From Pseudomonadota bacterium (GTDB lineage: Bacteria > Pseudomonadota > Gammaproteobacteria > Burkholderiales > Burkholderiaceae_C), in NCBI GenBank assembly GCA_021819435.1, contig JAKARB010000012.1, positions 1-64,000 on the forward strand: 64,000 nucleotides of DNA. Direction: 5' to 3'. The position numbers and the translations under genes are program-made. A model generated the notes under the pieces. It was not told where the DNA came from and did no database searches. It saw only the letters and a program-made list of their open reading frames with translations. Shown one piece after another: positions 20,815 to 47,459 of this stretch. The stretch's first letter is position 1; each line of letters opens with the position of its first letter.

Positions 20815-20860
20815 TGCTGACCTGATCAGCACATGCCAGCAGCCTGGGTCTTTCGGCTGC
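20815..20860 (+). ncRNA. radC-type leader RNA, copy A (degenerate)
   Basis: Stem 1 is TGCTGA / TCAGCA (20815-20820, 20826-20831). ACATGCC follows, then stem 2 GCAGCC / GGCTGC (20839-20844, 20855-20860) around a 10-base loop TGGGTCTTTC. The linker lacks part of the ATGCCCAG found in the other copies. It lies about 135 bases ahead of the first gene of its operon. Confidence 0.6.
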
Positions 20861-20995
20861 CGCGGGACTCTCCTCGTGCGACCCACCACCAGTCCGCTTC
20901 GCATCGACCACCGCGGACGGGCGTTTCACGACGCCGATGCCGTTCATGTTCAGCAGCGCCTCTACCCGTGAATCCAACCACCTGGAGCCCATGTC

Positions 20996-21388
20996 ATGAA
21001 CCGTGCCCTGCCTCAAGAGGTACTTGATCAGATCGAGCTGGAACACCAGCACTTCGCCGCCGCGCCGCAAGCCTTCTTCGAGGCGTGGAAGCGCGGTGCA
21101 CGCATCGCCGGAGCCGAATGGTTTGGCGACGGCACCCGCGAAGGCCTGCAGCGTGCCACCACCAAGTGGGATCTGCGGCCGAACCTGCTGATGCTCAACG
21201 ATGCCTTGGGCGTCCTGAGCAGCGGCCAGCGGATGTTCCTGTCCGCGATGGTGAGCTTCTACAACGCCCGCGAGGGTGGCGCGATGCTCAAGCGTTGCGG
21301 CTTCGAGGGTCTGTCCGACCTGGGCGGCCTCGATCTCGAACGGCGCAAGGTCATCGCCGACCTGACGCTGAACTACAACGGCTGGTGA
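20996..21388 (+). CDS. Conserved ICE protein of unknown function
   Basis: The 130-residue soluble protein (LDQIELEHQHFAAAPQAFFEAWKRGARIAGAEW, then RPNLLMLNDALGVLSSGQRMFLSAMVSFYNAREGGAMLKRCGF) is mostly helical and has no motif I recognise. It is the first gene after leader RNA copy A and probably shares a transcript with the next two genes, ending at the terminator at 22761. Confidence 0.75.
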   Translation: MNRALPQEVLDQIELEHQHFAAAPQAFFEAWKRGARIAGAEWFGDGTREGLQRATTKWDLRPNLLMLNDALGVLSSGQRMFLSAMVSFYNAREGGAMLKRCGFEGLSDLGGLDLERRKVIADLTLNYNGW

Positions 21389-21431
21389 GCCGCTTCGGCC
21401 CGCCGACGTTCTTCTTTTCTTCCCACCCCAC

Positions 21432-21474
21432 GAGGGACATGCGTCCCTGTTCGGGGCCATGTCCCTCCTTTTTT
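21432..21474 (+). terminator. Terminator-like hairpin directly ahead of a ribosome site
   Basis: GAGGGACATG / CATGTCCCTC form a 10-bp stem followed by CTTTTTT, the form of an intrinsic terminator. The T-run ends one base before ATAGGAG, the ribosome site of the next gene, so there is no room for a promoter after it. The downstream gene must be reached by read-through or by control of termination. Confidence 0.7.
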
Positions 21475-21488
21475 CATAGGAGTGAATC

Positions 21489-21953
21489 ATGTCCCCAGGC
21501 TTTTCCATCGGTCTGCTCGTGACCAACGACGACATCGATGCGGTCATCCTCGAAGGCTGGCCGGACGGTGTGCCCAAGCCGCGCATGGTGGTGTTCGACT
21601 ACGCCGGCAACGACGTGCTCGATGAATACGTGCTGCGCGTCAGCACCGGAGCCCCGGACGCCGGATTGACCGGCCGCGAGGTGTTCGCGGTCGAGTACGG
21701 CCCCGATTGCCGCTACCCGTCGCCCGCCGAAATCCTCTCGGTACTCGATGCACGCAAGCCGGCCGACGAACCTTCGGCGCTGAGCATCGCCCGCGGCGTG
21801 CACCAGAGCATCCTCGAATTGGATGCGCGGCTTGATCGCCTGGAGCAGGCGCCGACCGGCGATGACTACAACCGCCTGTACCAGCTTGCCAATGGCGGCC
21901 TGCTCGACCTGTTGAAGACGCTGGGCGACCCGTCCTCTACCGCTGCCGACTGA
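21489..21953 (+). CDS. Conserved ICE protein of unknown function
   Basis: The 154-residue protein opens FSIGLLVTNDDIDAVILEGWPDGVPKPRMVVFDYAGNDVLDEY and ends with a helical segment (HQSILELDARLDRLEQAP). I recognise no enzyme motif. It is preceded by a terminator-like hairpin and AGGAG, and lies in the operon after leader RNA copy A. Confidence 0.78.
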   Translation: MSPGFSIGLLVTNDDIDAVILEGWPDGVPKPRMVVFDYAGNDVLDEYVLRVSTGAPDAGLTGREVFAVEYGPDCRYPSPAEILSVLDARKPADEPSALSIARGVHQSILELDARLDRLEQAPTGDDYNRLYQLANGGLLDLLKTLGDPSSTAAD

Positions 21954-21975
21954 CCGGCTGCCACTTCATCCACCC

Positions 21976-22004
21976 GCTGGGGTTCAATCCCCAGCAGGGG
22001 ATTG
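21976..22004 (+). promoter_or_regulatory. Two mutually exclusive hairpins ahead of the gene at 22034
   Basis: GCTGGGG (21976-21982) can pair with CCCCAGC (21989-21995), or CAATCCCC (21985-21992) with GGGGATTG (21997-22004). The two stems share bases and cannot form together, which is the layout of an attenuator or translational switch. No T-run follows the second stem. Confidence 0.5.
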
Positions 22005-22033
22005 CCTCGGCCATCCTCTGCTGGAGAAATCCC

Positions 22034-22750
22034 ATGTCCTACTCGAACAACAATCCCTTTGTCCGCGGTTACGATGGCCTGTCGGTCGAACGGCTGCTCG
22101 CCGTCTCCTATGACGACGACTGCCCGCTGACTTACCTGCCGCTGCATCCCTCGCAGTCGCATCTGCCGGACGGCCAGGTCGAACGGAGGGCCTGCATCTT
22201 CTCGGACGACTTCGTGCTGATCACCGAGGACCAGGCGGTTCCCGATGAACTGGAGGCGCAATGCCGCAGCCACGGGCTCGCCCGCAACGTGGTCTACGCC
22301 GTCATGGCCCAGGAAGAAGGCAAGCCGCTGCACGTCGGCGACACCTACTCCGACGAGGCGGCCCGGGAAGTCGTGCGGCGCCTACGCTATGAAACTGGCT
22401 TCTACAGCCGGTGCTGGGAGATCAGCAGCGGGCACCTCGACGCCGAAGCGCATCGCTTCCTCGCCGAGCTGGCGGACATCGCCACGCCGACGCTGTTCCT
22501 GTTCATCGCTTTCCGCATCCCGTACAGCCCGGCGATCGGCGTGAAGCTGATCGCCACGCCCTGGACGGATGACAACCTGCGCGCGGTCGAAGGCATCACG
22601 GCCAAGCGGCTGATGCAGGAGCACCGCAAGAAGGGCATGCCGGAATCCCTCGTGCACGTGCTGCACCTGGCCGCGCTCGCCGACGTGCGCATGCTGGTCT
22701 TCGATGCCGATGCGCAGGTGCTGGACGGACTGCCGATCTACGACGACTGA
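22034..22750 (+). CDS. Conserved ICE protein of unknown function (possibly DUF5983-like)
   Basis: The 238-residue protein (RGYDGLSVERLLAVSYDDDCPLTYLPLHPSQSHL, VVYAVMAQEEGKPLHVGDTY, YSRCWEISSGHLDAEAHRFL, LVFDADAQVLDGLPIYDD) is acidic, without transmembrane segments. The C-terminal ending resembles ICE proteins grouped as DUF5983, but I am not sure. It is the last gene of its operon; a strong terminator follows 10 bases after the stop. Confidence 0.75.
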   Translation: MSYSNNNPFVRGYDGLSVERLLAVSYDDDCPLTYLPLHPSQSHLPDGQVERRACIFSDDFVLITEDQAVPDELEAQCRSHGLARNVVYAVMAQEEGKPLHVGDTYSDEAAREVVRRLRYETGFYSRCWEISSGHLDAEAHRFLAELADIATPTLFLFIAFRIPYSPAIGVKLIATPWTDDNLRAVEGITAKRLMQEHRKKGMPESLVHVLHLAALADVRMLVFDADAQVLDGLPIYDD

Positions 22751-22760
22751 CACCACCTCA

Positions 22761-22789
22761 CGAGCCTCCACGCGGGGCTCGTTTTTTTT
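22761..22789 (+). terminator. Intrinsic terminator of operon A
   Basis: CGAGCC / GGCTCG stem (22761-22766, 22776-22781) followed by eight T residues, 10 bases after the preceding stop codon. Confidence 0.85.
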
Positions 22790-22813
22790 GAGGAAGTCGG
22801 TGGCGGCGCAGTG

Positions 22814-22821
22814 CCGATTCC
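22814..22821 (+). promoter_or_regulatory. CCGATTCC box B
   Basis: GTGCCGATTCCCTCG stands 25 bases after the operon A terminator and 52 bases before leader RNA copy B, the same spacing as in the other copies. Confidence 0.45.
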
Positions 22822-22865
22822 CTCGCGACGCTGGCCTGCGTCTGCCGCACGCTGATCGCATGTTC

Positions 22866-22915
22866 GCTGGCGTTGCCGGCAAGCATGCCCAGGCAGTCGA
22901 GACCTTCGAGGCTGC
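22866..22915 (+). ncRNA. radC-type leader RNA, copy B
   Basis: Stem 1 GCTGGC / GCCGGC encloses GTT. The linker AAGCATGCCCAG leads to stem 2 GCAGTC / GGCTGC with the 11-base loop GAGACCTTCGA. Bases in both stems differ from other copies but keep pairing, which supports RNA structure. A further small hairpin AAGGGA / TCCCTT (22983-23000) lies near the ribosome site of the next gene. The leader is about 175 bases from stem 1 to the start codon. Confidence 0.75.
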
Positions 22916-23040
22916 GGTGCGGTTCGCCGCGCTGGTTGTTTTTCCTTCCACGGGCGCATGCGCGTCCATCCACCTCACCCCCAAGGGACATGCCTCCCTT
23001 GCGGGCGGGAGTTCCTTGGATTGCCACAAGGAGCTTTTCC

Positions 23041-23838
23041 ATGGATACCCAAGCCATCCGCGCACAGATGCCGACGCTGGTTCGCGGCCACGTGCCTTCC
23101 AACGTCCGCAGCTTCAAGTTCAACATCTTCGACGGCCAGCCCAAGGTTTCGACGCTGGGCGTCCACATCGATCCCAAGCCCTTCGAGGGCAAGGTCATCG
23201 CCACCACCGACGAGGCCATCGTCGTCAAGACGGGCCGGGCCGAGTTCGCGGTGCTCGACAAGGCGCTCGTCACCGACGTGCCCGACGAAGGCGCCAAGGT
23301 GCAGGTCGAACCGTATGCGCGGCGCCGCTTCGACGGCCTGCGCGCGGACACGCCCGAGGAAAGCACCGAGTTCACTGCTGGCGGCCAAGCCTACACGGTG
23401 AAGCGGTTCATCCTGGGCTCGGCGCCGGCCAAGCTGCCGATCGCGGAGCCGCAGTGCCCCGAGTTGCAGGAGCTGATCCACCAACTGGAGCAGTTGCCCG
23501 CGCCCGATGGCTTCCGCCGCATCACGCACCTGCTGGTGGATGCCGGCGCGCGAGACTTCACCGTGGTCGATCCGAGCCCCAGCGACATCATCGCCACGCC
23601 GCCGGCCATCGGCTTCACGGTCGCCTCGGCGAAGTTCCAAGGGCACGTCACCGTGCTCTACGAGCGCGGCCTCGATCTCTACGCGGTGGAACTGCGCCGC
23701 GACGGCGAACTGGTCGAGCGGGTCGATGAAGTGTTCTTCGACACCCTGGGCCAGACGCTGGAGCGGCTGATCGACGACGGCACCTGGCGCCTCATCCGCG
23801 TGCAGCGCCTGTCGGGCCGCAAGCCTGTCTCGCACTGA
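23041..23838 (+). CDS. Conserved ICE protein of unknown function
   Basis: The 265-residue protein (FKFNIFDGQPKVSTLGVHIDPKPFEGKVIATTDEAIVVKTGRAEFAVLDKALV) has a beta-rich N-terminal half and a C-terminal half with LYERGLDLYAVELRRDGELVERVDEVFFDTLGQTLERLI. I recognise no catalytic motif. CAAGGAG precedes the start. It is the first gene after leader RNA copy B. Confidence 0.78.
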   Translation: MDTQAIRAQMPTLVRGHVPSNVRSFKFNIFDGQPKVSTLGVHIDPKPFEGKVIATTDEAIVVKTGRAEFAVLDKALVTDVPDEGAKVQVEPYARRRFDGLRADTPEESTEFTAGGQAYTVKRFILGSAPAKLPIAEPQCPELQELIHQLEQLPAPDGFRRITHLLVDAGARDFTVVDPSPSDIIATPPAIGFTVASAKFQGHVTVLYERGLDLYAVELRRDGELVERVDEVFFDTLGQTLERLIDDGTWRLIRVQRLSGRKPVSH

Positions 23839-23857
23839 CCTCTCTGCGTCCCTATGC

Positions 23858-23884
23858 GGCTTCCCGTCCTCACGGCGGGAAGCC
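23858..23884 (+). promoter_or_regulatory. Intercistronic hairpin before the DUF3085 gene
   Basis: GGCTTCCCG / CGGGAAGCC form a 9-bp perfect stem with a 9-base loop, followed by TTCTTCTT, 20 bases after one stop and 30 before the next start. Confidence 0.6.
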
Positions 23885-23914
23885 TTCTTCTTGCATCCGT
23901 TGGAGACCACTTCC

Positions 23915-24409
23915 ATGACTGTTCGATTCAAGGGCGCCGATCTGCGGCCCGTGCTGACCGAAGCGCTGGCCAACCAGTGCCGCGTCATCCTGGTCAAGGA
24001 CCAGGGCGTCTATTTCATGGCCGAGCGCGGCGAGCGTCGGCCCGATGGGCGACGCAAGACCATCGCCTACGCCGTTGACTGCGACCCGGACGCCGATCCG
24101 TTCGACAACTGGTGGGAACTGGCGCGCGCCGAGTTCGGCGGCGACGACTTCGGCGAGTTCTTCGATCTGCAAGAACCTGTGTTCGCCCGCATCCAGCACA
24201 GCGAGGACGACCTCGAAGTGTCGGCCACGCGACGCACCTGTCGTTGCAGCCCGTGCTCGCGTCACTCGCCGGCCACTGACCCTCCTGCCTCCCAGCCCCC
24301 CGCATGGGGGTTTCTCTTTTTTCAGGACGACCAGCGTCAGGACTCCATATTTTCAATTCCAGGCCCGCTCCGTTATCTGAACAGGCGACGCGGTATCCAC
24401 CACAGGTAG
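23915..24409 (+). CDS. DUF3085-like ICE protein with a frameshifted C terminus
   Basis: The 164-residue frame begins MTVRFKGADLRPVLTEALANQCRVILVKDQGVYFMAERGERR and fits DUF3085. After LEVSATR it reads RTCRCSPCSRHSP and on into unrelated sequence. In another frame the same DNA gives THLSLQPVLASLAGH and stops at 24277-24279, which looks like the natural end. An insertion or deletion near 24225-24235 (GCCACGCGACGCACC) is the likely cause. As written, the frame runs through a terminator and into the 3' end of the opposite-strand permease gene. Confidence 0.65.
   Translation: MTVRFKGADLRPVLTEALANQCRVILVKDQGVYFMAERGERRPDGRRKTIAYAVDCDPDADPFDNWWELARAEFGGDDFGEFFDLQEPVFARIQHSEDDLEVSATRRTCRCSPCSRHSPATDPPASQPPAWGFLFFQDDQRQDSIFSIPGPLRYLNRRRGIHHR
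24296..24322 (+). terminator. Intrinsic terminator of operon B
   Basis: CCCCC / GGGGG stem with a GCAT loop followed by TTTCTCTTTTTT. It lies 18 bases after the stop codon that would end the restored DUF3085 frame, and marks the left edge of the inserted permease gene. Confidence 0.75.
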
Positions 24410-25323
24410 AACACCATGCCGAAAAGCTCGACCAGCGACTGCACCACGATCACCACAGCGGCGATTTCCCACCCGGCGGGCAGCGACAAGGCGAAGGGCA
24501 ACACCACGAAGGAATTGCGCGTGCCCAGGCTGAAGGCGAGCGTTCGTCCTTGATCGGTCGGCAGCGCCATCAGCCAGGCCAGCCCTTTGGCAATCAGCGC
24601 AGCGGCCCCCAGAAAGACTAGGAACAGCGGAACGATCGAAGGGAACAGTCCCACGGCTCCCCAGACCGCATTGACTTGCGCACCGGCGATCATGAAGACG
24701 ACGAGCCCCAACATCGGCACCGGCCACCATGCCAGACGCTCGCGCACGGCCGCGCGCTCCGCTCGGGCTTCGATCCAGCGTTCCGACAAGGCAGCGGCGA
24801 CCAGCGGGATGATGACGACCAGCAATGCAGGCCACACGTCGCCAAAGCTCAGGGCCGATGACAGATCGGCCCCGAGCATGAGCCACAGGTAGGTCGGCAA
24901 TAGCAGCAACTGCAACAGCAGGTTGATCGGGGTGACGGCGATGGCGCGGGGCACATTGCCGCCGCCCAATTGGCTGAACGTGATGAACCAGTCCGTGCAG
25001 GGCACCAGCAGGACCAGCAGCACGCCCAATCGCACGGCCGGATCAGCGGGCAGCCATTGCACCAAGCCCCAAGTCAGCGCCGGCACGACGATGAAGTTTC
25101 CGATCAGTACCGAGGCAACGAACCGATGATCGCGGAACGCTTCGCGCAAATGCAGCAGAGGCACTTGCACAAAGGTCGCGTAGAGCAGCAGCACCAGGGC
25201 CGGCCACAGCAGGGCCTCGAAAGTGGGGTTGACGCCGGGCCACGCGCTGCCGACCAGCAAGCCGGCAATGATGGCCGCCAGATAGACCCATACTTGGCGG
25301 CGTTCGAGAGTAAGACGATCCAA
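24373..25323 (-). CDS. Arsenite-permease-like membrane protein (SBF family)
   Basis: The 316-residue protein has eight to ten hydrophobic segments and belongs to the bile acid:sodium symporter / Acr3-like superfamily. LVPCTDWFITFSQLGGGNVPRAIAVTP carries the conserved cysteine region, and LAFSLGTRNSFVVLPFALSLPAGWE the second conserved half-site. It is often annotated as an arsenic resistance protein; other substrates are possible. The start appears to be TTG. It is the only minus-strand gene between 20.7 and 53 kb, placed exactly between the terminator of operon B and box C, so it looks like cargo. Confidence 0.8.
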   Translation of the reverse strand: MDRLTLERRQVWVYLAAIIAGLLVGSAWPGVNPTFEALLWPALVLLLYATFVQVPLLHLREAFRDHRFVASVLIGNFIVVPALTWGLVQWLPADPAVRLGVLLVLLVPCTDWFITFSQLGGGNVPRAIAVTPINLLLQLLLLPTYLWLMLGADLSSALSFGDVWPALLVVIIPLVAAALSERWIEARAERAAVRERLAWWPVPMLGLVVFMIAGAQVNAVWGAVGLFPSIVPLFLVFLGAAALIAKGLAWLMALPTDQGRTLAFSLGTRNSFVVLPFALSLPAGWEIAAVVIVVQSLVELFGMVFYLWWIPRRLFR

Positions 25324-25499
25324 GAAAACACTACCCCAATCAGTTCGTTCGAGTCGGCACGTGCGGACGCGCCAGACAGGGATTTAGCAAAAGTAAGGCC
25401 AAGAGTTTTCTAGCCTTGCATGTACGAGGGTAGCTCACAAAGGGCATGGGTCAGTCCAACGGTAGTGCGCCGACCACCCAATGCGGGCACCGGCCGGTG

Positions 25500-25507
25500 C
25501 CGATTGC
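25500..25507 (+). promoter_or_regulatory. CCGATTCC-type box C
   Basis: GGTGCCGATTGCCGC, 53 bases ahead of leader RNA copy C. The following GCGTCTG.CGC.ACGCTG also matches the same stretch after box B. Confidence 0.45.
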
Positions 25508-25552
25508 CGCTCGCGCGGGCGCGCGTCTGACGCCACGCTGCCGCCATGTTCC

Positions 25553-25602
25553 GCTGACACCCGTCAGCAGCATGCCCAGGCAGTCTCGATCTTCAAGACT
25601 GC
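25553..25602 (+). ncRNA. radC-type leader RNA, copy C
   Basis: Stem 1 GCTGAC / GTCAGC encloses ACCC. The linker AGCATGCCCAG leads to stem 2 GCAGTC / GACTGC with loop TCGATCTTCAA. Compared with copy B the change GGCTGC to GACTGC turns a G-U pair into A-U, so pairing is kept. Confidence 0.78.
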
Positions 25603-25779
25603 GACGCGGTTCCGACTGCGTTGATCAACCAGTTCGCTCCGGCATCCCAGCACGAACGGCCATCGGTTCTCCCGATGGTGATGCCACCCAAGCTGTTCCT
25701 TCAACCCACGCGGGGGTTCCACACCTTCCCCGCCTTGGGTCGGGTGTGTCTCCGCCTCTTTGTTCTTAGGAGATTCACC

Positions 25780-26334
25780 ATGACCACTTCCACCGAAAAG
25801 TCCTTCTTCGACCTGCACATCACCGGCCTCGGGTATCTCAATCGCATCCGCGAAGTGAAGCCCAAGAAAGGCGATGCGTTCCTGGCCTGCGACATCGCGG
25901 CGCTCAACGGCCCCAGCGATGACGTTGCCTACGTGCGTTTCGACACGCGCGTCTCGGGCTCCGAAGCGCAGCACCTGGTGCGCCGCTGCATCCAAGCGGT
26001 CGATGCCGAGAAGAAGGTGATGATCGGCTTCCGCCTGGGCGACCTGTGGGCCGACACCTTTACCTACTCAAAGGGCAAGCGTGCCGGCGAGCAGGGGGTG
26101 AGCCTCAAGGCCCGCCTGCTGTTCGTCAGTTGGATCAAGGTCGATGGCAAGCTCGTCTACAAGGCCGAGCCCAAGCCGACCGATGCCGACGATCGCGACG
26201 TGCGCAACACGGATGTCCCCGCGACTTCCGCCGAGCCGCAAGCCGCCGCGCCCGAGCCTTCCAGGCCCGCCGCCGAAGCTGCCGATGAAGCCGCTGCCGA
26301 TGCCCCCGCATTGGAAGTTGCCGAGTCGTTCTGA
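25780..26334 (+). CDS. DUF3577 / STY4534-type ICE protein
   Basis: The 184-residue protein starts after AGGAG. FFDLHITGLGYLNRIREVKPKKGDAFLACDIAALNGPSDDVAYVRFDTRVSG is a beta-rich region typical of STY4534 proteins, which are annotated as ICE replication-related. A long tail rich in alanine, proline and glutamate follows residue 135. It is the first gene after leader RNA copy C. Confidence 0.8.
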   Translation: MTTSTEKSFFDLHITGLGYLNRIREVKPKKGDAFLACDIAALNGPSDDVAYVRFDTRVSGSEAQHLVRRCIQAVDAEKKVMIGFRLGDLWADTFTYSKGKRAGEQGVSLKARLLFVSWIKVDGKLVYKAEPKPTDADDRDVRNTDVPATSAEPQAAAPEPSRPAAEAADEAAADAPALEVAESF

Positions 26335-26338
26335 TCCG

Positions 26339-26363
26339 CAAGGCCCCGTCCCCTGGGGCCTTG
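26339..26363 (+). promoter_or_regulatory. Intercistronic hairpin before the DUF3275 gene
   Basis: CAAGGCCCC / GGGGCCTTG form a 9-bp perfect stem followed by TCTTCTT, beginning four bases after the preceding stop codon. It is terminator-like but weak in T residues. Confidence 0.6.
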
Positions 26364-26445
26364 TCTTCTTCCCACTCGCGTGCGCATGCGACCGTCGCCA
26401 TGACGGCCGTGTGCGTGATCGCGGCTTCGTCCGCAGGAGTTCTTC

Positions 26446-27075
26446 ATGATCACCATTCCCGGCCAATTGGCCATCAAGACCATCCACGGCCGCAACGGCG
26501 ACTTCAACGTCGGCCGCCTCGCGACCTCCATCGGCGAGTTCGTCGTGAAGAACGCCGAACTCGACCAGTACGCCGAAGGCAAGTACGAGGGCGATTTCGC
26601 CATCGCGGAAATCCGCCCGTCCACGTACACCGCCAACGGTCGCATGGTCATCGAGATCCGCGCCTTGCTGGGCGGCATGACCTTGTCGGCCATCGACGCC
26701 CTGAGCCGTGACGACGCCAGCCGGCTGAGTCCGCAGGAAGTCGATCCGATCGACGAGGAAGCGCAGACCGCCACGCCGACGCCGACCACCGCCCCCAAGG
26801 CGGCCGGCCGGAAGAAGGCACGCAGTTCGCGCGACCCGCTGGTCGATACCACGCCGTTCGGCAGCGAACCGGCTGTTGCGTCTGCCGATGCTTCGGCCCA
26901 TGCGGACGACGACGGCGACGCGGCCCTGTTCGGCGCGCTCTGGCCGCTGGGCGATGTCGTCAAGCTCGATGCCACCGTGGATCGGCGTGTGCTGCGTCAG
27001 CAGCGCGACCGCCTCGGTGATCTCGGCTACGAGTTTGCTCCGCTGTCCCAGGACTGGCACCTCGCCAGGGTCTGA
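26446..27075 (+). CDS. DUF3275-type ICE protein
   Basis: The 209-residue protein begins MITIPGQLAIKTIHGRNGDFNVGRLATSIGEFVVKNAELDQYAEGKYEGDF, which fits DUF3275. The middle (about 100-160) is low in complexity and rich in alanine, threonine and proline. A conserved end follows (LFGALWPLGDVVKLDATVDRRVLRQQRDRLGDLGYEF). Function unknown. It is the second gene of operon C. Confidence 0.78.
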   Translation: MITIPGQLAIKTIHGRNGDFNVGRLATSIGEFVVKNAELDQYAEGKYEGDFAIAEIRPSTYTANGRMVIEIRALLGGMTLSAIDALSRDDASRLSPQEVDPIDEEAQTATPTPTTAPKAAGRKKARSSRDPLVDTTPFGSEPAVASADASAHADDDGDAALFGALWPLGDVVKLDATVDRRVLRQQRDRLGDLGYEFAPLSQDWHLARV

Positions 27076-27107
27076 TTCCCACCGCCGCCTTGCGCGGCAT
27101 TCCACCA

Positions 27108-27132
27108 CCCACCGGGGTTCCTCCCCGGTGGG
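27108..27132 (+). promoter_or_regulatory. Intercistronic hairpin before the DUF932 gene
   Basis: CCCACCGGGG / CCCCGGTGGG form a perfect 10-bp stem with loop TTCCT. GGTCTCTTTTTCCC and the AAGGAG ribosome site follow. Confidence 0.65.
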
Positions 27133-27168
27133 GCGGGGCTCCGGTCTCTTTTTCCCAAGGAGATCGTC

Positions 27169-27996: not shown

Positions 27997-28002
27997 CCCA
28001 CA

Positions 28003-28038: not shown

Positions 28039-28081
28039 CTTTGGTGGGTGAGTCTCAGGCAAATAGGGGTGCGCTGCGCGG

Positions 28082-28089: not shown

Positions 28090-28134
28090 CGCTGCCGTAA
28101 ACCACCCGCCTGGGCGCAGGCTACGCTCATGTCC

Positions 28135-28183
28135 GTCGGCGCTGCCGACAACATGCCCAGGTAGCCCAGACCTTCAAGGCTAC
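28135..28183 (+). ncRNA. radC-type leader RNA, copy D
   Basis: Stem 1 GTCGGC / GCCGAC encloses GCT. The linker AACATGCCCAG leads to stem 2 GTAGCC / GGCTAC with loop CAGACCTTCAA. Both stems carry double changes relative to copies B and C that preserve pairing. A perfect GGGCAG / CTGCCC hairpin follows near 28251-28265, before the next gene. Confidence 0.78.
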
Positions 28184-28305
28184 GGTGCGTTGCGACGCAC
28201 GGTCTGATTCTTCGCCACGACGCTCACCGCGTTTTCTTCCATCCCCCTGGGGCAGTGACTGCCCTCGCGGGTGGTGCTGTCTCCGCTCACTTCGAGGACA
28301 TCACC

Positions 28306-28962
28306 ATGCCTGCACCTTCTTCCCCCAAGACGCTCTATCGCATCGACGAATGCCCCGACCTGATGGCCGATGGCGTCGTCGGTGACGAGAACGGCAACCT
28401 GGTCTTCATCTCCCTCTGGGCGCGCGACACCGCCGTCCAGGAATTCCTGGCTCGCCTCACCCTGGGCCGGGACGAACAGGGACTGGATCAGTTCCACGTC
28501 ATCACCGAGCAGGGCGCGAGCATCCCGGTATTCGTCGGCAACGTCGAGAACCTGGAGAAGCGCAGCGCACGCGCCTACCGGCGCACGCTGTTCGGCTCGC
28601 TGACCAACATCTGGCTGTTCGACCGGCGCTGCGTCAAGCCCGACAAGGCCAACGCCAGCGCGCTGGCGCTCCTGCCTCGCGATTCCACGCACCGGCTCGA
28701 CCGGCTGTGGAAGCTGGTGCGGGACACCTGCCCGCTGCCGCTTCTCGATCCATGGCGCGAACCCGTGCTGGAACTGCTGCAGGCGAAGTCGATGCTGACG
28801 CGCCTGCCGTTCGCCCTCGGGGCTCTGGAAGGCCATCGGCTCGCCATCGACGTGCCGACGCTGACCCAGGTGCTGGGCGGCCTGATCCGCAGCGGCGCGC
28901 TCGTCGCCGGCACGCCCGCCAGCCGCATCCCCTCGGCACAACCGCTCGAAGCGGTGGCTTGA
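28306..28962 (+). CDS. Conserved ICE protein of unknown function
   Basis: The 218-residue protein (TLYRIDECPDLMADGVVGDENGNLVFISLWARDTAVQEFLARLTLG, LFGSLTNIWLFDRRCVKPDKANASALALLPRDSTHRLDRLWKLVRDTCPLPLLDPWREPVLELLQ) is soluble and has no motif I can name. It is followed closely by the methyltransferase and helicase genes and may act with them. Confidence 0.76.
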   Translation: MPAPSSPKTLYRIDECPDLMADGVVGDENGNLVFISLWARDTAVQEFLARLTLGRDEQGLDQFHVITEQGASIPVFVGNVENLEKRSARAYRRTLFGSLTNIWLFDRRCVKPDKANASALALLPRDSTHRLDRLWKLVRDTCPLPLLDPWREPVLELLQAKSMLTRLPFALGALEGHRLAIDVPTLTQVLGGLIRSGALVAGTPASRIPSAQPLEAVA

Positions 28963-40300: not shown

Positions 40301-40989
40301 GCCGATTCAAGAACGAGGTCGCGCACCTGCAGGCGCATGTGAAGGCCTTGCGCCTGGCCGGCGCCGCGCTGTTCGTGGTGGCGCTGCTGCTCGGCTTCGG
40401 CTGGTGGAGCGCACCCAAGAGCCTGACCATCCACGTGCCGCCCGACCTGCGCTCGGGCAGCACCCGCAAGTGGTGGGACGTGCCGCCGGAAAGCGTCTAC
40501 GCCTTCACCTTCTACATCTGGCAGCAGGCGCAACGCTGGCCGACTAACGGCGAGCAGGACTACCCGCGCAACCTGCATGGGCTGTCGGCCTACTTCACAC
40601 CGAGCTGCCGGGCTTTCCTGCAACAGGACTACGAGTTCCGGCGCAGCAACGGCGAGTTGCGCCAGCGCGTGCGCGGCATCTACGAGATTCCCGGCCGCGG
40701 CTACGGCGACGATCCCGCCGCGCGCGTGCGCACCGTGTCGGCGAACGACTGGATCGTCACGCTGGACGTGAGCGCCGACGAGTACCTGGGCGCCGAGCAG
40801 GTCAAGCGCGCACTCGTGCGCTACGCGCTGAAGGTCGTGCGCATCGACATCGATCCCGAGCGCAATCCCTTCGGCCTCGTTCTGGACTGCTATGCACGTG
40901 CGCCCGAGCGCATCGAAACCCCGCCGCCCCCGGCGCCAGCCGGCAAGCCCGCCAGCCCCGGTGCCAATCTGCAGGGAGACACCCCATGA
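40297..40989 (+). CDS. TIGR03746-type ICE protein (PFL_4703 family, TraE/VirB8-like)
   Basis: The 230-residue protein has one transmembrane helix at about 22-42 (AALFVVALLLGFGWWS) followed by a periplasmic domain (SLTIHVPPDLRSGSTRKWWDVPPESVYAFTFYIWQQAQRWPTNGEQDYPRNL), as in TraE/VirB8 proteins that nucleate the inner-membrane complex. The tail is rich in proline. It is translationally coupled at both ends. Confidence 0.84.
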   Translation: MSRFKNEVAHLQAHVKALRLAGAALFVVALLLGFGWWSAPKSLTIHVPPDLRSGSTRKWWDVPPESVYAFTFYIWQQAQRWPTNGEQDYPRNLHGLSAYFTPSCRAFLQQDYEFRRSNGELRQRVRGIYEIPGRGYGDDPAARVRTVSANDWIVTLDVSADEYLGAEQVKRALVRYALKVVRIDIDPERNPFGLVLDCYARAPERIETPPPPAPAGKPASPGANLQGDTP

Positions 40990-41903
40990 AGCGCTGCTTC
41001 CTTCCGGCCCTGGCCGGCGTCCTGTTGTGCCTGGGTTTCGTGCCCGCGGGCAATGCCATCGAAATCCTGCGCTGGGAGCGCCTGCCGCTGGCGGTGCCGC
41101 TCGTGGTCGGCCAGGAGCGCGTGGTCTTCATCGAGCGCAACGTGCGCATCGGCGTGCCGGCCGGCGTCGGCGAGCAGTTGCGCGTGCAGAGCGCCGGTGG
41201 CGCGATCTACCTGCGCGCCAGCGCGCCCATCCCGCCCACGCGGCTGCAACTACAGGACGTGGAATCCGGCGCGCTGATCCTGCTCGACATCGCCGCCGAG
41301 CCGGCCAAGGCGGGCCAGCCCGCGCTCGAACCCGTGCGCATCGTCGAGGGTGATGTGCCGGCCATCCGCTACAGCGAGCCGGCCAGCCCCTCGGCCACCG
41401 CGGACGACGATGCGCAGCGCCCGACACCAACCGCCCGCCGCGCAACGCCGGTGGCCGTGGTGTTGACGCGCTACGCGGCGCAAAACCTGTACGCGCCGCT
41501 GCGCACCGTGGAGCCCATGGCCGGCATCGGCCGCGTCAACCTGCGCCGCAACCTCGCGCTGGACACCTTGCTGCCCACGCTGCCGGTGCGCGCGCAGGCG
41601 CTGGCCGCGTGGCGGCTCGAAGACCAGTGGGTGACGGCCGTGAAGCTCACCAACACCTCCGGGCGCTGGCTCGACCTCGATCCGCGTGCGCTGCAGGGCG
41701 ACTTCCTCGCCGCGACCTTTCAGCATCCGACCCTGGGGCCGGCCGGCCGCGCAGCCGACACCACCGTGGTCTATCTCGTCACCCGTGGCCACGGCCTGGC
41801 CGAGTCGCTGCTGCCCAAGGTGGCGCCGATCGACGCGACGGTGAACCTGCCGCCGGCGGCGGCCGCCGGCCAGGCCGAAGGAGGAGCGCGCGATGAAAAG
41901 TAA
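40986..41903 (+). CDS. TIGR03749-type ICE protein (PFL_4704 family, TraK/VirB9-like)
   Basis: The 305-residue protein has a signal peptide (LPALAGVLLCLGFVPAGNA). A beta-rich domain follows (IEILRWERLPLAVPLVVGQERVVFIERNVRIGVP), and a second one begins near VVLTRYAAQNLYAPLRTVEP. The order TraE-, TraK-, TraB-like in this operon supports a TraK/VirB9 role in the outer-membrane core complex. Its end overlaps the next gene by 11 bases. Confidence 0.83.
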   Translation: MKRCFLPALAGVLLCLGFVPAGNAIEILRWERLPLAVPLVVGQERVVFIERNVRIGVPAGVGEQLRVQSAGGAIYLRASAPIPPTRLQLQDVESGALILLDIAAEPAKAGQPALEPVRIVEGDVPAIRYSEPASPSATADDDAQRPTPTARRATPVAVVLTRYAAQNLYAPLRTVEPMAGIGRVNLRRNLALDTLLPTLPVRAQALAAWRLEDQWVTAVKLTNTSGRWLDLDPRALQGDFLAATFQHPTLGPAGRAADTTVVYLVTRGHGLAESLLPKVAPIDATVNLPPAAAAGQAEGGARDEK

Positions 41904-43371
41904 CCCCCTCCTGAAGTGGCTGCTGATCCCGATGGCGCTGGTGCTGGTGTTCGTCGGCATCAAGCTCTTCTCGGGCGAGCGCAGCGCCAGGCCGGTACCT
42001 CCCGGCAGCGCCAACCCGCTCACGCCCGAAGAGATGAAGGCGCTGGGCATCGAGGGCGACACGCCGCGCGATACCGTCGCGACGTTGGTGGCCCAGGTCA
42101 AGCAGTTGCGCAACGAGCTGCAGACGGCGCTCAACGACAACAAGAACCAGAAGACCGAGAACGAACGCATGCGCGCGAGGGAAAGCGCGATCGACCAGCG
42201 CATCCAGTCCGCGCTCGACGGCGAACGCGGCCGCCTGCAGCAGGACCGCGAGCAGTTGGCCGGCGACCGCCAGCAGACCCAGGGCCTGCTGCAAGACCTG
42301 CAGCGGCGCCTGGACGGCCTCTCCGGCAAGAGCGGCCAGGCCGACCTGCCGGTGGGCCTCGGGCTGGAGCAAGGCGACGGCAAGAGCTTCGGCGGCAACC
42401 AGAGCGGCAGTGCGCGCAACACCAACGGCACGCGCTGGGTGGAGCCGGACGATGCGAAACCCTCAGCGAAGAACGGCAGCAGCGGCGGCTTGAATTTCCC
42501 GACCAGCTTCGGGCCGGCGCAGAAGACGCTTTCCGACACGGCCGACGGCGTGGCAAGCACCGTCGCGGATGCGGGCAGCCGCGCCGTGAGCGCCACGGGC
42601 AATTTCGCCAAGCCGGTCTACACGGTGCCGTCGAACTCGACGCTGATGGGCTCGATCGCGATGACGGCGCTGATCGGCCGCGTGCCGATCGACGGCACGG
42701 TCAATGATCCGTATCCCTTCAAGGTGCTGATCGGCCCGGACAACCTGACCGCCAACGGCATCGACATCCCCGACGTGGCCGGCGCGGTGGTCAGCGGCAC
42801 GGCCTCGGGCGACTGGACGCTTTCCTGCGTGCGCGGCCAGATCCGCTCGGTCACGTTCGTCTTCAACGACGGCACGATCCGTACCGTGCCGGAGGACGGC
42901 AATCGGAATCGGAGCAGCGGCAATCAGGGCAACAGCGCGAACAGCACGACGCAGGGCGGCCTGGGCTGGATCAGCGACCCCTACGGCATCCCGTGCGTCT
43001 CGGGCGAGCGGCGCAGCAACGCGCAGCAGTACCTGGGTTCGCAGGCGCTGATCACCGCGGCCGGCGCCGGTGCGGCCTCGCTGATCAAGTCGGACAACGG
43101 CAGCGTGGCCGTGGTCGCCAACAGCAACGGCTCGCTCGGCACCGTCGGTATCAGCGGCAATGAGGCGATGGGCCGCATCCTGGCCGGCGGCGTGCGCGAC
43201 ATGGCCGATTGGGTCAACAAGCTCTACGGGCAGGCCTTCGCCGCGGTCTACGTGCGGCCCGGCGCCAAGGTCGCCGTGCATCTGGAGCAGCCGCTCAACA
43301 TCGACTACGACGCCAAGGGGCGGCGGGTCAATCACCGCATCGGAGACGCCCATGCGTCGGATTTGGATTGA
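41893..43371 (+). CDS. TIGR03752-type ICE protein (PFL_4705 family, TraB/VirB10-like)
   Basis: The 492-residue protein has an N-terminal transmembrane helix (LLKWLLIPMALVLVFVGIKLF), a coiled coil about 55-145 (VAQVKQLRNELQTALNDNKNQKTENERM), a low-complexity linker with many G, S and N, then a VirB10-like domain starting near STLMGSIAMTALIGRVPIDG and ending VYVRPGAKVAVHLEQPLNIDYD. Such proteins span the periplasm and couple the inner-membrane ATPases to the outer pore. Confidence 0.86.
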   Translation: MKSNPLLKWLLIPMALVLVFVGIKLFSGERSARPVPPGSANPLTPEEMKALGIEGDTPRDTVATLVAQVKQLRNELQTALNDNKNQKTENERMRARESAIDQRIQSALDGERGRLQQDREQLAGDRQQTQGLLQDLQRRLDGLSGKSGQADLPVGLGLEQGDGKSFGGNQSGSARNTNGTRWVEPDDAKPSAKNGSSGGLNFPTSFGPAQKTLSDTADGVASTVADAGSRAVSATGNFAKPVYTVPSNSTLMGSIAMTALIGRVPIDGTVNDPYPFKVLIGPDNLTANGIDIPDVAGAVVSGTASGDWTLSCVRGQIRSVTFVFNDGTIRTVPEDGNRNRSSGNQGNSANSTTQGGLGWISDPYGIPCVSGERRSNAQQYLGSQALITAAGAGAASLIKSDNGSVAVVANSNGSLGTVGISGNEAMGRILAGGVRDMADWVNKLYGQAFAAVYVRPGAKVAVHLEQPLNIDYDAKGRRVNHRIGDAHASDLD

Positions 43372-43786
43372 ATCGGCCGCGGCCCTGTGCGCGGTCATGG
43401 TGCTGGGCGGCTGCGCGACCAGCAAGGACGAGCTGCTGCCGCACGGCGATCACACCATGCTCGACGTGTGGAACCAGGAGACGGGCGGCAGCGCCGGTAG
43501 CGGACAGGCGGCGCGGCAACTGCTCGACGCGCGCCAGGGCCTGCGCCGGCCGCTGACCGAGGCCGACGTGCAGGCGGCGCCCGCCGCCGCTGCCGCCTAC
43601 ACGGGCACCGCGGCCAACGAGATTTACCGCCAGTTCCACCGGCTGCCGAACCCGGACCTGGTGATGTACGTGTTCCCGCACCTAGCCGGCACCGACCCGG
43701 TGCCGGTGCCCGGCTACACCACCGTGTTCCCGCTCTACCAGCGCGTGCAGTACGCGATGCCCGGCGAGCGCCTGGAGGACTACTGA
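43352..43786 (+). CDS. TIGR03751-type conjugation lipoprotein (TraV/VirB7-like)
   Basis: The 144-residue protein has a lipobox signal (AALCAVMVLGGCATSKDELLPHG), so the cysteine becomes the lipidated N terminus. The conserved end is NEIYRQFHRLPNPDLVMYVFPHLAGTDPVPVPGYTTVFPLYQRVQYAMPGE. By position after the TraB-like gene it is the TraV/VirB7 counterpart that stabilises the outer core. Its start lies inside the previous gene and its stop overlaps the next start. Confidence 0.85.
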   Translation: MRRIWIESAAALCAVMVLGGCATSKDELLPHGDHTMLDVWNQETGGSAGSGQAARQLLDARQGLRRPLTEADVQAAPAAAAAYTGTAANEIYRQFHRLPNPDLVMYVFPHLAGTDPVPVPGYTTVFPLYQRVQYAMPGERLEDY

Positions 43787-46680
43787 TGGCCTGGTCGTTG
43801 CCCTGGGCACGCAAGGCCGCCACGCCTGCCGGCCCCGACCTGGATGCCGATGACGCCTGGGCGCAGCATGTCTCGACGCTGGCCGCGCACGGTATTCCCG
43901 AGCCCGGCAGCGCGGTGGGCGGCCAGCCGCGCCGGCCGGCCACCGAGGCGGACTTGCAGGCGCTCTACGGCGTGGCGCCGTCCTTCGCCGACCTGCTCCC
44001 CTGGGTGGAGTACCTGCCCGATTCCAAGAGCGTGCTGCTGGAGGACGGCCAGTCGGTGGCGGCCTTCTTCGAGCTGGCGCCGGTCGGCACCGAGGGCCGC
44101 GAGATGGCATGGCTGTGGCAGGCGCGCGATGCGTTGGAGAACGCGCTGCAGGACTCGTTCGACGAACTCGACGAGAACCCCTGGGTGGTGCAGCTCTACG
44201 CCCAGGACGAAGCAACCTGGGACAACTACCTGCGCGGGCTCACGAACTACGTGCGGCCGCGCGCTCAGGGCAGCGCCTTCACCGAGTTCTACCTGCGCTT
44301 CTTCGGGCATCACCTGCGTGCGATCGCCAAGCCCGGCGGCCTGTTCGAGGACACGACGGTGACGCGCCTGCCGTGGCGCGGCCAAGTGCGGCGAGTGCGC
44401 ATGGTGGTCTACCGGCGCGCGAGTGCGTCTGGCGCGTCCCGGCGCGGCCAATCTCCCGAGCAGGCACTGACGACGATCTGCGACCGACTCGCAGGTGGCC
44501 TCGCCAACACGGGCGTGAAGGCCCGGCGCATGGAGGCGAGCGACATCCACGACTGGCTGCTGCGCTGGTTCAACCCGCACCCCACGATGCTTGGCCCCGC
44601 CGCCGCCGACCGCGAACGGTTCTACGCGCTGACCCGCTACCCCGAGGAAGCCGAGCAAGGCGAGATTGAGCTGGCCAGCGGCGACTTCGCGCAGCGCCTG
44701 TTCTTCGGCCAGCCGCGCTCGGACGTGGCGAACGGCACCTGGGTCTTCGACGGCATGCCGCACCGGGTCATCGTGATGGACCGCCTGCGCATGCCGCCCG
44801 CCACGGGCCACGTCACCGGCGAGACGCGCAAGGGCGGCGATGCGGTCAACGCGCTGTTCGACCAGATGCCCGAGGACACGGTGATGTGCCTGACGGTCGT
44901 CGCGACGCCGCAGGACGTGCTCGAAGCGCACCTGAACCACCTGAGCAAGAAGTCGGTCGGCGAGACGCTGGCCTCGGAGCAGACGCGCCGCGACGTGCAG
45001 GAAGCGCGCGGGCTGATCGGCAGCGCGCACAAGTTGTACCGCGGCGCGCTGGCCTTCTACCTGCGCGGGCGCGACCTCGTGCAGCTCGACGCCCGCGGCC
45101 TGCAACTGGTCAACGTCATGCTCAACGCCGGCCTGCAGCCGGTACGCGAGGAAGACGAAGTGGCGCCGCTCAACAGCTACCTGCGCTGGCTGCCGTGCGT
45201 GTTCGACCCGGCCGCCGACAAGCGCCAGTGGTACACGCAACTGATGTTCGCGCAGCATGCGGCGAACCTCGCGCCGGTGTGGGGCCGCAGCCAGGGAACC
45301 GGCAATCCGGGCATCACGTTCTTCAACCGCGGCGGCGGGCCGATCACCTTCGACCCGCTGAACCGGCTCGACCGGCAGATGAACGCGCACTTGTTCTTGT
45401 TCGGCCCCACGGGCTCGGGCAAGTCGGCCACGCTCAACAACATCCTGAATCAGGTGACGGCGATCTACCGGCCGCGCCTGTTCATCGTGGAGGCTGGCAA
45501 CAGCTTCGGGCTGTTCGGCGACTTCGCCACGCGGCTCGGCCTCAAGGTGCATCGCGTGAAGCTCGCACCCGGCGCCGGCGTCAGCCTCGCGCCGTTCGCC
45601 GACGCGCACCGGCTCGTGGATACGCCCAGCCAGGTGCAGACGCTGGATGCCGATGCGCTGGACGAGGACCAGGAGCCCGCAGTGCAGGCGGCGAGCCGCA
45701 GCGAAGAAGTGGACGAACAGCGCGACGTGCTCGGCGAGCTGGAAATCACTGCGCGGCTGATGATCACCGGCGGCGAAGACAAGGAAGAAGCGCGCATGAC
45801 GCGCGCCGACCGCAGCCTGATTCGCCAGTGCATCCTCGATGCGGCCCAGCGCTGCGTAGCCGAGCAGCGCACGGTGCTCACGCGCGACGTGCGCGATGCG
45901 CTGCGCGAGCGCGCCCGCGACACGTCACTGCCCGAAGTTCGGCGCGCGCGCCTGCTGGAGATGGCGGACGCGATGGATATGTTCTGCCAGGGCGTGGACG
46001 GCGAGATGTTCGACCGGCCCGGCACGCCGTGGCCCGAGGCCGACATCACCATCGTGGACCTCGCCACCTTCGCGCGCGAGGGCTACAACGCGCAGCTCTC
46101 CATCGCCTACATCTCGCTGATCAACACGGTCAACAACATCGCAGAGCGGGACCAGTTCCTGGGCCGCCCGATCATCAACGTGACGGACGAAGGCCACATC
46201 ATCACAAAGAACCCGCTGCTCGCGCCCTACGTCGTGAAGATCACGAAGATGTGGCGCAAGCTTGGTGCCTGGTACTGGCTGGCGACGCAGAACATCGACG
46301 ACCTGCCCAAGGCCGCCGAGCCCATGCTCAACATGATCGAGTGGTGGATCTGCCTCTCCATGCCGCCGGACGAGGTGGAGAAGATCGCGCGCTTCCGCGA
46401 GCTGAACGCGGCGCAGAAGGCGTTGATGCTGTCGGCCCGCAAGGAGGCGGGCAAGTTCACCGAGGGCGTGATCCTCTCCAAGAGCATGGAAGTACTGTTC
46501 CGTGCGGTGCCGCCCAGCCTCTACCTGGCGCTGGCTCAGACCGAACCGGAGGAGAAGGCCGAGCGTTTCCAGTTGATGCAGCAGTACGGCATCGGCGAAC
46601 TGGATGCCGCTTTCAAGATCGCCGAGAAGATCGACCGCGCCCGCAGCATCGAGCCGCTAGCGCTCGATGCGCTGGCGTGA
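43786..46680 (+). CDS. traC: VirB4/TraC-like conjugative transfer ATPase (PFL_4706 family)
   Basis: The 964-residue ATPase has Walker A FLFGPTGSGKSATLNN near 540-547 and Walker B PIINVTDEGHII near 797. The N-terminal half fits the VirB4 family (LPDSKSVLLEDGQSVAAFFELAPVG). An acidic insert lies at about 622-645 (ALDEDQEPAVQAASRSEEVDEQ). It energises pilus assembly and substrate transfer from the cytoplasmic side of the inner membrane. The ATG shares its last base with the previous TGA region. Confidence 0.93.
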   Translation: MAWSLPWARKAATPAGPDLDADDAWAQHVSTLAAHGIPEPGSAVGGQPRRPATEADLQALYGVAPSFADLLPWVEYLPDSKSVLLEDGQSVAAFFELAPVGTEGREMAWLWQARDALENALQDSFDELDENPWVVQLYAQDEATWDNYLRGLTNYVRPRAQGSAFTEFYLRFFGHHLRAIAKPGGLFEDTTVTRLPWRGQVRRVRMVVYRRASASGASRRGQSPEQALTTICDRLAGGLANTGVKARRMEASDIHDWLLRWFNPHPTMLGPAAADRERFYALTRYPEEAEQGEIELASGDFAQRLFFGQPRSDVANGTWVFDGMPHRVIVMDRLRMPPATGHVTGETRKGGDAVNALFDQMPEDTVMCLTVVATPQDVLEAHLNHLSKKSVGETLASEQTRRDVQEARGLIGSAHKLYRGALAFYLRGRDLVQLDARGLQLVNVMLNAGLQPVREEDEVAPLNSYLRWLPCVFDPAADKRQWYTQLMFAQHAANLAPVWGRSQGTGNPGITFFNRGGGPITFDPLNRLDRQMNAHLFLFGPTGSGKSATLNNILNQVTAIYRPRLFIVEAGNSFGLFGDFATRLGLKVHRVKLAPGAGVSLAPFADAHRLVDTPSQVQTLDADALDEDQEPAVQAASRSEEVDEQRDVLGELEITARLMITGGEDKEEARMTRADRSLIRQCILDAAQRCVAEQRTVLTRDVRDALRERARDTSLPEVRRARLLEMADAMDMFCQGVDGEMFDRPGTPWPEADITIVDLATFAREGYNAQLSIAYISLINTVNNIAERDQFLGRPIINVTDEGHIITKNPLLAPYVVKITKMWRKLGAWYWLATQNIDDLPKAAEPMLNMIEWWICLSMPPDEVEKIARFRELNAAQKALMLSARKEAGKFTEGVILSKSMEVLFRAVPPSLYLALAQTEPEEKAERFQLMQQYGIGELDAAFKIAEKIDRARSIEPLALDALA

Positions 46681-46693
46681 CGGGGAGTCCACG

Positions 46694-47440
46694 ATGCGCA
46701 TCCCTCGCTTCGCGCCGCCCCGCACCGTCCTTGTCGCCGCGCTGCTGGTGGCCGCGGCCCTGACCACGGCCGCGTGGCTCGCCCTGCGGCCGCCGTCGCC
46801 GCCCGCCGAGCCCGCTTCTCCTTCGGCAGAAGCAACACTTACGCCGGCAACGGCACCAGCCGGCCCGCCCTGGCGCTATGGCCGCGCCGATGCGCGCTTC
46901 ACGGTGGTCGAGTACGCCGACCTCGAATGCCCGTTCTGCCGCGCGTACTTCGCGGTGCTCAAGCGCTGGATCGACGCGCACCCGGAGGTGAGCTGGCAAT
47001 GGCACCACCTACCGTTGCCGTTGCACGAGCCGGCCGCTTCCGCCGGTGCGCGCCTGGTGGAGTGCGTCGGCGAGGCCGGCGGCCAGGCCGCGTTCTGGCA
47101 GGCCGTCGAGTGGGTCTACATGCACACCCGGGGCAACGGCCAGGGCCTGCCCGAGGGTCTGCGCTATCCCGACCTCACGCCGGCCGCGCAGCAATGCCTC
47201 GACAGCGACCGCCCCGATGCGCTGATCCGCGCACAGTCGGCGAGCGCGGCGCAGGAGGGCATCAAGGTCACGCCCACGCTGCGCCTGCAGGATCGCCAGT
47301 CCGGCAAGACGCTGCTGCTGCACGGCCCGGTCGAAGGAGATGCCTTGCTGTCCGCGATCGACCTGCTGGCGGCCAGTGCAGCGGCCGAGCCCGCATCGAA
47401 GGAAATGCCTGCCGAGTCTCTCGGCGACATGCCCAGGTAG
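46694..47440 (+). CDS. DsbA/DsbC-like thiol-disulfide protein of the ICE
   Basis: The 248-residue protein has an N-terminal membrane anchor (VLVAALLVAAALTTAAWLAL), then a thioredoxin fold with C79-P-F-C82 (VVEYADLECPFCRAYFAVLKRWIDAHPEV) and the cis-proline loop GIKVTPTLRL. It probably oxidises or isomerises disulfides in cysteine-rich mating-pair proteins such as the TraU- and TraH-like ones downstream. The coding end overlaps the first stem of leader RNA copy E. Confidence 0.85.
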   Translation: MRIPRFAPPRTVLVAALLVAAALTTAAWLALRPPSPPAEPASPSAEATLTPATAPAGPPWRYGRADARFTVVEYADLECPFCRAYFAVLKRWIDAHPEVSWQWHHLPLPLHEPAASAGARLVECVGEAGGQAAFWQAVEWVYMHTRGNGQGLPEGLRYPDLTPAAQQCLDSDRPDALIRAQSASAAQEGIKVTPTLRLQDRQSGKTLLLHGPVEGDALLSAIDLLAASAAAEPASKEMPAESLGDMPR

Positions 47441-47459
47441 CCACGATCTTCAAGGCTAC
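47411..47459 (+). ncRNA. radC-type leader RNA, copy E (upstream of radC)
   Basis: Stem 1 GCCGAG / CTCGGC encloses TCT and lies inside the last codons of the DsbA-like gene. GACATGCCCAG leads to stem 2 GTAGCC / GGCTAC with loop ACGATCTTCAA. The radC gene starts 176 bases after the second stem. GTCCC.CGGA / TCCGGGAC forms another hairpin close to the radC ribosome site. Confidence 0.8.

Follow-up and report, generated by a model that had tools for sequence, protein, structure and literature searches.

The radC RNA of an ICEclc-type element as a probable pseudoknotted mRNA leader that may gate translation

SAM-II and preQ1 are pseudoknotted translational riboswitches, each a compact domain upstream of the start codon. 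The radC RNA likewise places a compact domain with pseudoknots ahead of a start codon, but its Shine-Dalgarno (SD) sequence lies outside the pseudoknot, five copies of it stand before unrelated genes in a single element and it has no known ligand. Here we analyse the radC RNAs in a 64,000-nt stretch of Burkholderiaceae_C DNA (contig JAKARB010000012.1; hereafter the window), which holds the core of an integrative and conjugative element (ICE) of the ICEclc/PAPI type with a ParB-like, DUF2857, STY4528 and PFL_4669 module and type IV secretion genes. Our preferred reading, for which we judge the case evenly balanced, is that the radC RNA is a pseudoknotted mRNA leader gating translation of the element's genes after transcription starts.

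The columns that class this RNA in the 2010 survey are reportedly headed RNA, cis-regulatory and switch. The table row itself reads "Y, y, ?, Proteobacteria, RF01754", and the passage of that paper on the radC RNA describes no downstream SD hairpin (Weinberg et al. 2010, PMC2864571). We found no study of its function since 2010 in open-licence PMC full text, where searches for its name returned the 2010 description and a method paper of 2020. A passage of the latter, on CaCoFold, places radC/RF01754 among RNAs with covarying pairs missing from database structures (Rivas 2020, PMC7657543); the helices PK1 or P4 discussed below may already be listed there, hence we claim no priority for them. 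For ICEclc, the parts of the two papers on its transfer-competence regulon that we draw on describe promoters and a DNA motif (Gaillard 2010, PMC2892462; Sulser 2022, PMC9286271), and in the main text of PMC9286271 the terms "radC" and "secondary structure" have zero occurrences each. The published units headed by ORFs 81655, 84835, 88400 and 89247 (ORF, open reading frame), and likewise ORF58432 (radC), are all preceded by a radC RNA.

Five radC RNAs and their fold

An earlier note on the window had read five short repeats as copies of the radC RNA. A cmscan search with the Rfam model RF01754 matched all five at 74.9-123.7 bits against a gathering cutoff of 40, each over the full model length and on the + strand, with E-values from 4.2e-12 to 3.4e-23. 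The copies, designated A to E, lie at 20798..20940 (74.9 bits), 22849..23008 (90.9 bits), 25535..25684 (117.3 bits), 28118..28272 (91.7 bits) and 47394..47542 (123.7 bits). The first stem, linker, second stem and loop seen earlier are present at every site; the proposed linker and loop consensus applies to copies B-E but not to copy A, in which the linker is incomplete (ATGCC--AG) and the loop reads GGTC instead of GAYC. The extent of about 50 nt had been underestimated, since the RNA is really about 150 nt long. Copies A, C and E share one 3' domain (type I) and copies B and D have another (type II). All five are upstream of same-strand genes. Copies A-D may stand at operon starts, as the earlier note had proposed for all five, but copy E is intercistronic: it overlaps the 3' end of a thioredoxin-like ORF (46667-47440), with radC next. 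No sixth copy was detected in the whole 4.41-Mb genome (150 of 580 candidates scored), and the RNA was absent from 14 of 14 control genomes.

The domain consists of the helices P1, P2 and P3 and a pseudoknot, PK1, between the P2 loop and a segment behind hairpin 3, to which type I adds P4 crossing P5 around the hairpin P6; the segments CCCAGG and CUUCAAG are conserved and unpaired. PK1 was first seen by eye in the window and ICEclc copies, where its partners change in step: GGGUC 20846-20850 with GACCC 20880-20884 in copy A, GACC 22901-22904 with GGUU 22934-22937 in B, GAUC 25588-25591 with GAUC 25623-25626 in C, AGACC 28168-28172 with GGUCU 28201-28205 in D, and the loop CGAUC 47444-47448 with GAUCG 47479-47483 in E (all +). 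In type I copies P4 is GUUCGC/GCGAAC and the crossing P5 is GCAUCC/GGAUGC. On the + strand they fall at 20892-20897/20913-20918 and 20901-20905/20936-20940 in copy A, at 25632-25636/25653-25657 and 25642-25646/25680-25684 in copy C, and at 47489-47494/47510-47515 and 47498-47503/47537-47542 in copy E, with P6 between. The structure line that cmscan prints for RF01754, which cannot display pseudoknots, lacks PK1 and P4 and gives the 3' end other pairing partners; type I copies favour P4 x P5 over that pairing, and the type II copies B and D align poorly in the 3' domain. In these two (22849-23008 and 28118-28272) other hairpins take the place of the P4 x P5 domain, and in copy B the domain carries CCCTTG-like repeats extending to the start codon.

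Covariation was assessed on relatives. A model built from 36 sequences (A1) matched 186 times in 100 fetched loci and a further 43 times in another 30, counting repeats. Of the former 185 were kept, a 23.9-bit match in locus L239 being left out, and of the latter 37, five overlapping-locus repeats and one same-score second copy on a P. veronii plasmid being left out. These 222 matches comprised 203 unique sequences and 164 after an 8-mer redundancy filter. Loci were taken for a selected part of the matches listed, best-scoring first, so the set leans to high scores. The alignment A2 holds the best 150 of the 186 matches, contains neither the window nor the ICEclc copies and was made with a model holding P5 but neither PK1 nor P4, so that the counts for PK1 and P4 are not fitted.

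On the 131 distinct rows of A2 a 47-pair structure was paired in 95.3% of cells, against 80.9 ± 0.3% in shuffles and at most 48.4% when the structure was slid along the alignment. Changes on both sides of a pair numbered 917 cells against 248.5 in shuffles, and covariation, which the earlier note had taken as evidence of RNA structure, is very strong in these relatives, none of them from the window. PK1 alone was paired in 89.6% of cells (75.2 ± 1.0% shuffled, slid maximum 44.8%) with 129 both-side changes against 47.6; four of its pairs carried such changes, no more than in shuffles, and the outer pair failed in 49 of the 131 rows. We also reshuffled inferred substitutions over a FastTree tree, our own approximation of R-scape. 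With 69 sequences, 11 column pairs had E<0.05, all inside helices (four in P6, two each in P4, P5 and P2, one in P1b), and the strongest was in P4. In a set of 107 sequences, part of them added by MAFFT, six of six such pairs were inside helices and the best PK1 pair ranked seventh at E=0.067. P1a and P3 had no pair with E<0.05 in either test. Because of these outcomes P4 counts as significant without prior assumption, and the support for PK1 extends only to the named helix.

Promoters, predicted starts and the ribosome-binding site

Two promoter types precede the RNA. TTGAC occurs 20-27 nt before the model in 60 of the 164 nonredundant copies, against 9 of 160 in a far-upstream 60-nt control window, and a TGCCGATT-like box with at most two mismatches occurs 36-39 nt before the model in 67 of 164; one copy of the 164 has both and 36 have neither. 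With at most one mismatch the box was found at 20-70 nt in 75 of 164 copies, with 43 cases at exactly 37 nt; a control window on the downstream side had it in 10 of 164. In the window it stands 37 nt before copy C (25498..25505, +) and copy B (22812..22819, +), and AACCGATT, with two mismatches to the box, stands 39 nt before copy A (20759..20766, +). For the 61 copies with TTGAC, the best -10 hexamer reaches into the beginning of the model, and starts are predicted at model nucleotides 8-14 with a mode at 12 (28 of 61); the exact base is soft, as the spacer was chosen by our own score. P1 begins at nucleotide 11, so that predicted transcription starts at the first stem and not downstream of the stems, the position that the earlier note had set against its reading. 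Model positions 1-6 of RF01754 look like part of a promoter and not of the RNA: what Rfam models as a conserved 5' end is probably promoter sequence, with the first stem probably opening the RNA. Neither promoter was recognised before any of the 16 copies in the radC-gene cluster, and in each of them an upstream frame of 80 or more open codons stops inside the RNA. Since two promoter types, or none recognised, precede the same RNA, the RNA is separate from transcription initiation.

Behind the RNA, a mechanical rule found an SD-led ORF in 149 of 164 copies, with the start codon at a median of 80 nt; the 15 copies lacking a start by this rule include integrase-element copies. SD tests were made on 148 leaders, leaving out those 15 and one leader lacking an SD match. 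Many leaders, among them the STY4534 leaders, form an anti-SD/SD hairpin. In copy C the anti-SD GGUGUGUCUCC (25743-25753) pairs with GGAGAUUCACC (25769-25779) directly before the start codon at 25780, and in copy E the hairpin occupies 47601..47634 before the radC start codon at 47635 (both +); the SD unpaired probability is 0.00 in each, and 0.00-0.01 over copies A, B, C and E. Among all leaders tested, 60 of 148 had a value below 0.05. In divergent leaders the proportion was 19 of 56, against 63 of 411 intergenic control genes (p=0.0013), and strong occlusion is thus only about twofold enriched over control genes. Furthermore, the SD 3' flank, taken without the GGAG core, pairs better with the upstream part of its own leader than with the corresponding parts of the rest (p=0.005, n=59); a sharpened form of this test (p=0.00005) is biased, for that very duplex had served to place the pairing partner.

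On the gating reading, each site would form the 5' portion of a leader on an mRNA of an ICEclc-type element, with an intercistronic position at radC. The nascent RNA would fold from its first nucleotides into P1, P2, P3 and PK1 and, in type I, P4 x P5 would also close around P6. Typically some 80 nt further on, many leaders would hold the SD in a hairpin with a coevolving anti-SD. The domain would sense one common signal, either a host metabolite or a protein of host or element, whose binding would shift the hairpins further downstream and thereby open or close the ribosome-binding site. Genes for replication and transfer, together with radC, would then come under joint translational gating, once promoters of the BisDC or sigma-70 type are on. 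Family membership, both pseudoknots (PK1 as a named helix), the sense-strand asymmetry described below, the two promoter types and the want of a recognised promoter in the 16-copy radC cluster are computed results; the gating itself, its direction and the signal are inferred. A broader proposal, which we regard as unlikely, is that these RNAs form a new class of switch, in which a domain with two pseudoknots senses a host signal and synchronises translation of replication and transfer genes, however transcribed, in BisDC-type ICEs, plasmids and small integrase elements.

Several observations weigh against translational gating. The SD of copy D is partly free (unpaired probability 0.22) and the SD duplex of copy A is weak (-8.2). 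Strong occlusion is predicted in only 34% of the divergent leaders, and 211 of 1120 shuffled leaders (19%) reach it as well; start-codon and SD choices were moreover mechanical. A switch through anti-anti-SD pairing looked convincing in STY4534 leaders and gave p=0.0001 with the SD-like core, but it failed without that core (p=0.43) and is not supported. Placing the RNA on the genetically tractable ICEclc map, together with promoters, pseudoknots and SD hairpin, makes its function testable by mutation in a single laboratory strain. Should translation be gated, the transfer competence of a large ICE family would gain a second, RNA-level lock beyond BisDC.

The ICEclc map and competing explanations

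The P. knackmussii B13 genome contains the exact letters of the published ICEclc promoters, and its ICEclc carries five radC RNAs, before ORF89247, ORF88400, ORF84835, ORF81655 and ORF58432 (radC) in AJ617740-type coordinates; the label ORF89247 denotes position only, as the frame behind that RNA ends at about 88.95 kb, a stop that mismatches the name. The passages on these units describe bimodal, BisDC-dependent activity for P88400 and P81655; P58432 is a weak promoter with read coverage that does not drop, and ORF81655 has a weak primer-extension product about 250 nt before its start codon (PMC2892462, PMC9286271). We predict the ORF81655 start, at model nucleotide 12, 224 nt before the start codon.

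Read coverage is also described there as rising upstream of ORFs 73676, 84835 and 89247, yet cloned fragments had no promoter activity (PMC2892462, PMC9286271). As 84835 and 89247 both carry the RNA, this would suit a stabiliser, an extreme 5' stem that shields long ICE transcripts from 5'-end-dependent decay without any switching, and so would the coincidence of the predicted start with the first stem. However, no radC RNA was found in the third such region, that of ORF73676, the copies before radC look internal, and a simple hairpin would do for this purpose, so that two conserved pseudoknots with unpaired CCCAGG and CUUCAAG exceed the need. We consider a pure stabiliser unlikely.

The put RNA and the EAR element are processive antitermination RNAs. 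A comparable role, in which the radC RNA modifies RNA polymerase for read-through of long ICE operons, would agree with its place before replication genes and with the internal position of copy E, which is followed by radC and more transfer genes, but the RNA also stands before integrase or DUF3987-integrase modules, and we give antitermination a low probability.

It is improbable that the conserved block is instead a DNA element, whether as an operator bound by BisDC or a different activator or as a promoter in single-stranded DNA, with covariation incidental or acting in DNA. Eight ICEclc promoters are described as sharing a 27-bp motif, and the late ones as depending on BisDC (PMC9286271, PMC2892462); in addition, a -10-like hexamer extends over the first nucleotides of the Rfam model. 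Nevertheless, the same RNA lies behind two different promoter types and, in the 16 copies of the radC cluster, behind neither, and it is present in genomes where no BisD homologue exceeds the cutoff. The ICEclc promoters of alpA, inrR, ORF67231, traI and intB13, which carry the published motif, yielded no radC RNA, and with five RNAs against eight motif promoters the identity of the RNA with that motif was rejected. A structure at the level of single-stranded or other DNA was set aside mainly on the paired positions of A2, where G.U occurs in 352 cells and A.C in 69, counts of related sequences and not of independent events. Because G.U fits an RNA of the sense strand, while A.C corresponds to G.T on the opposite strand, it is the sense strand that folds, and the sense strand, hence RNA, appears to be under selection.

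A transcription attenuator with an intrinsic terminator at the end of the RNA is scarcely credible and was rejected, for although 21 of 164 copies have a run of at least four T within 14 nt behind the RNA, our own rule detected intrinsic-terminator-like sites in just 7 of 149 leaders.

A Gibbs search of the eight ICEclc promoters returned no motif common to all. Upstream of ICEclc inrR, CGCCGGTTTC...GACGC (locus L196, B13 genome 3373307-3373333) resembles the TGCCGATT box, by eye only; its distance from the published inrR start is about 150 nt, and that start may therefore not be the BisDC start.

Distribution, possible partners and gene setting

RF01754 was found in 3 of 61 relatives and 2 of 369 sampled genomes of the class, the window genome included in both counts, and in 133 of 398 Pseudomonadaceae genomes; the Pseudomonadaceae scan scored no more than seven RNA candidates in any genome, which makes its copy numbers minimum values and may make some of its absences false. 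A blastn search with copy E returned eight plasmid records, with RF01754 in all five examined, and no match in E. coli genomes or phage records; viral contigs had no match to one strict pattern, and 17 of 116 chance loci, when checked, contained no radC RNA. The RNA-led genes included seven clusters of at least six members, not joined by BLAST at 1e-6.

The earlier note had suggested a common regulator acting on the RNA, which is plausible. Among the Pseudomonadaceae, a BisD homologue above cutoff occurred in 71 of 133 RNA-positive and 13 of 265 RNA-negative genomes; hence the RNA accompanies such ICEs in the majority of cases. BisD as the sole trans partner was rejected, as 62 of the 133 RNA-positive genomes have no homologue above cutoff, including 42 of the 46 in which one RNA copy was found, and 13 of 84 BisD-positive genomes have no RNA. 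In 11 of the 203 unique RNAs a shared long hairpin follows, and these loci look like small integrative elements: behind seven lie DUF3987 and integrase genes, behind three an integrase gene and behind L298 neither. The hairpin, a strong GCCCGTCTCTTTC/GAAAGAGACGGGC pairing 91-97 nt behind the RNA, was noted in L290, L153, L155, L156, L240, L280, L286, L288, L293, L294 and L298. In L290 (2938-3533) and L153 (1497-2080) the RNA opens a long leader, with about 550 nt from the RNA to the next gene. Ten Pseudomonadaceae genomes with loci of the RNA-integrase type (L240, L263, L280, L286, L288, L290, L291, L293, L294 and L298), inspected by hand, divided into five with a BisD homologue above cutoff and five without. 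A host signal, or a protein common to both element types, would fit this distribution better than BisD alone. On an E. ludwigii CM-TZ4 plasmid a csrA gene (L131, 37765-37962) lies among ICE-type conjugation genes and could encode an RNA-binding regulator of the leaders; CsrA as partner was set aside, since by eye the ANGGA site is not constant in leaders.

The first gene behind copy C (25780..26334, +) encodes an ICE replication protein of the STY4534 family (200.3 bits, cutoff 160), and that behind copy E (47635..48129, +) is radC (164 aa; TIGR00608 above cutoff, PF04002). The genes behind copies A (20996..21388, +, 130 aa) and D (28306..28962, +, 218 aa) had no match in the family search. 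Behind copy B (23041..23838, +, 265 aa) a weak KfrB match fell below cutoff; this gene belongs to the second largest cluster of RNA-led genes, and its beginning resembles that of ICEclc ORF84835.

Upstream in the window lie genes for a ParA-like ATPase (7894-8814), a PFGI-1 ParB protein (8982-10730), a DUF2857 protein (10743-11303, +), an STY4528 family protein (11307-12536, +), a PFL_4669/AcaB family protein (12845-13624, +) and a DNA topoisomerase (14894-16924); the RNA-led genes follow the topoisomerase gene, and then the type IV secretion genes. By family and order, the DUF2857 and STY4528 genes would be the counterparts of bisC and bisD, and by position the PFL_4669/AcaB gene would encode an InrR-type regulator, so that 10743-13624 would correspond to bisC, bisD and inrR of ICEclc. 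AcaB is a regulator of IncC plasmids, and the match of the putative InrR-type protein to Pfam AcaB may link the activation circuits of ICEclc and IncC. A gene of the sodium/bile-acid symporter family, possibly cargo within the core, sits between copies B and C (24373-25323, -).

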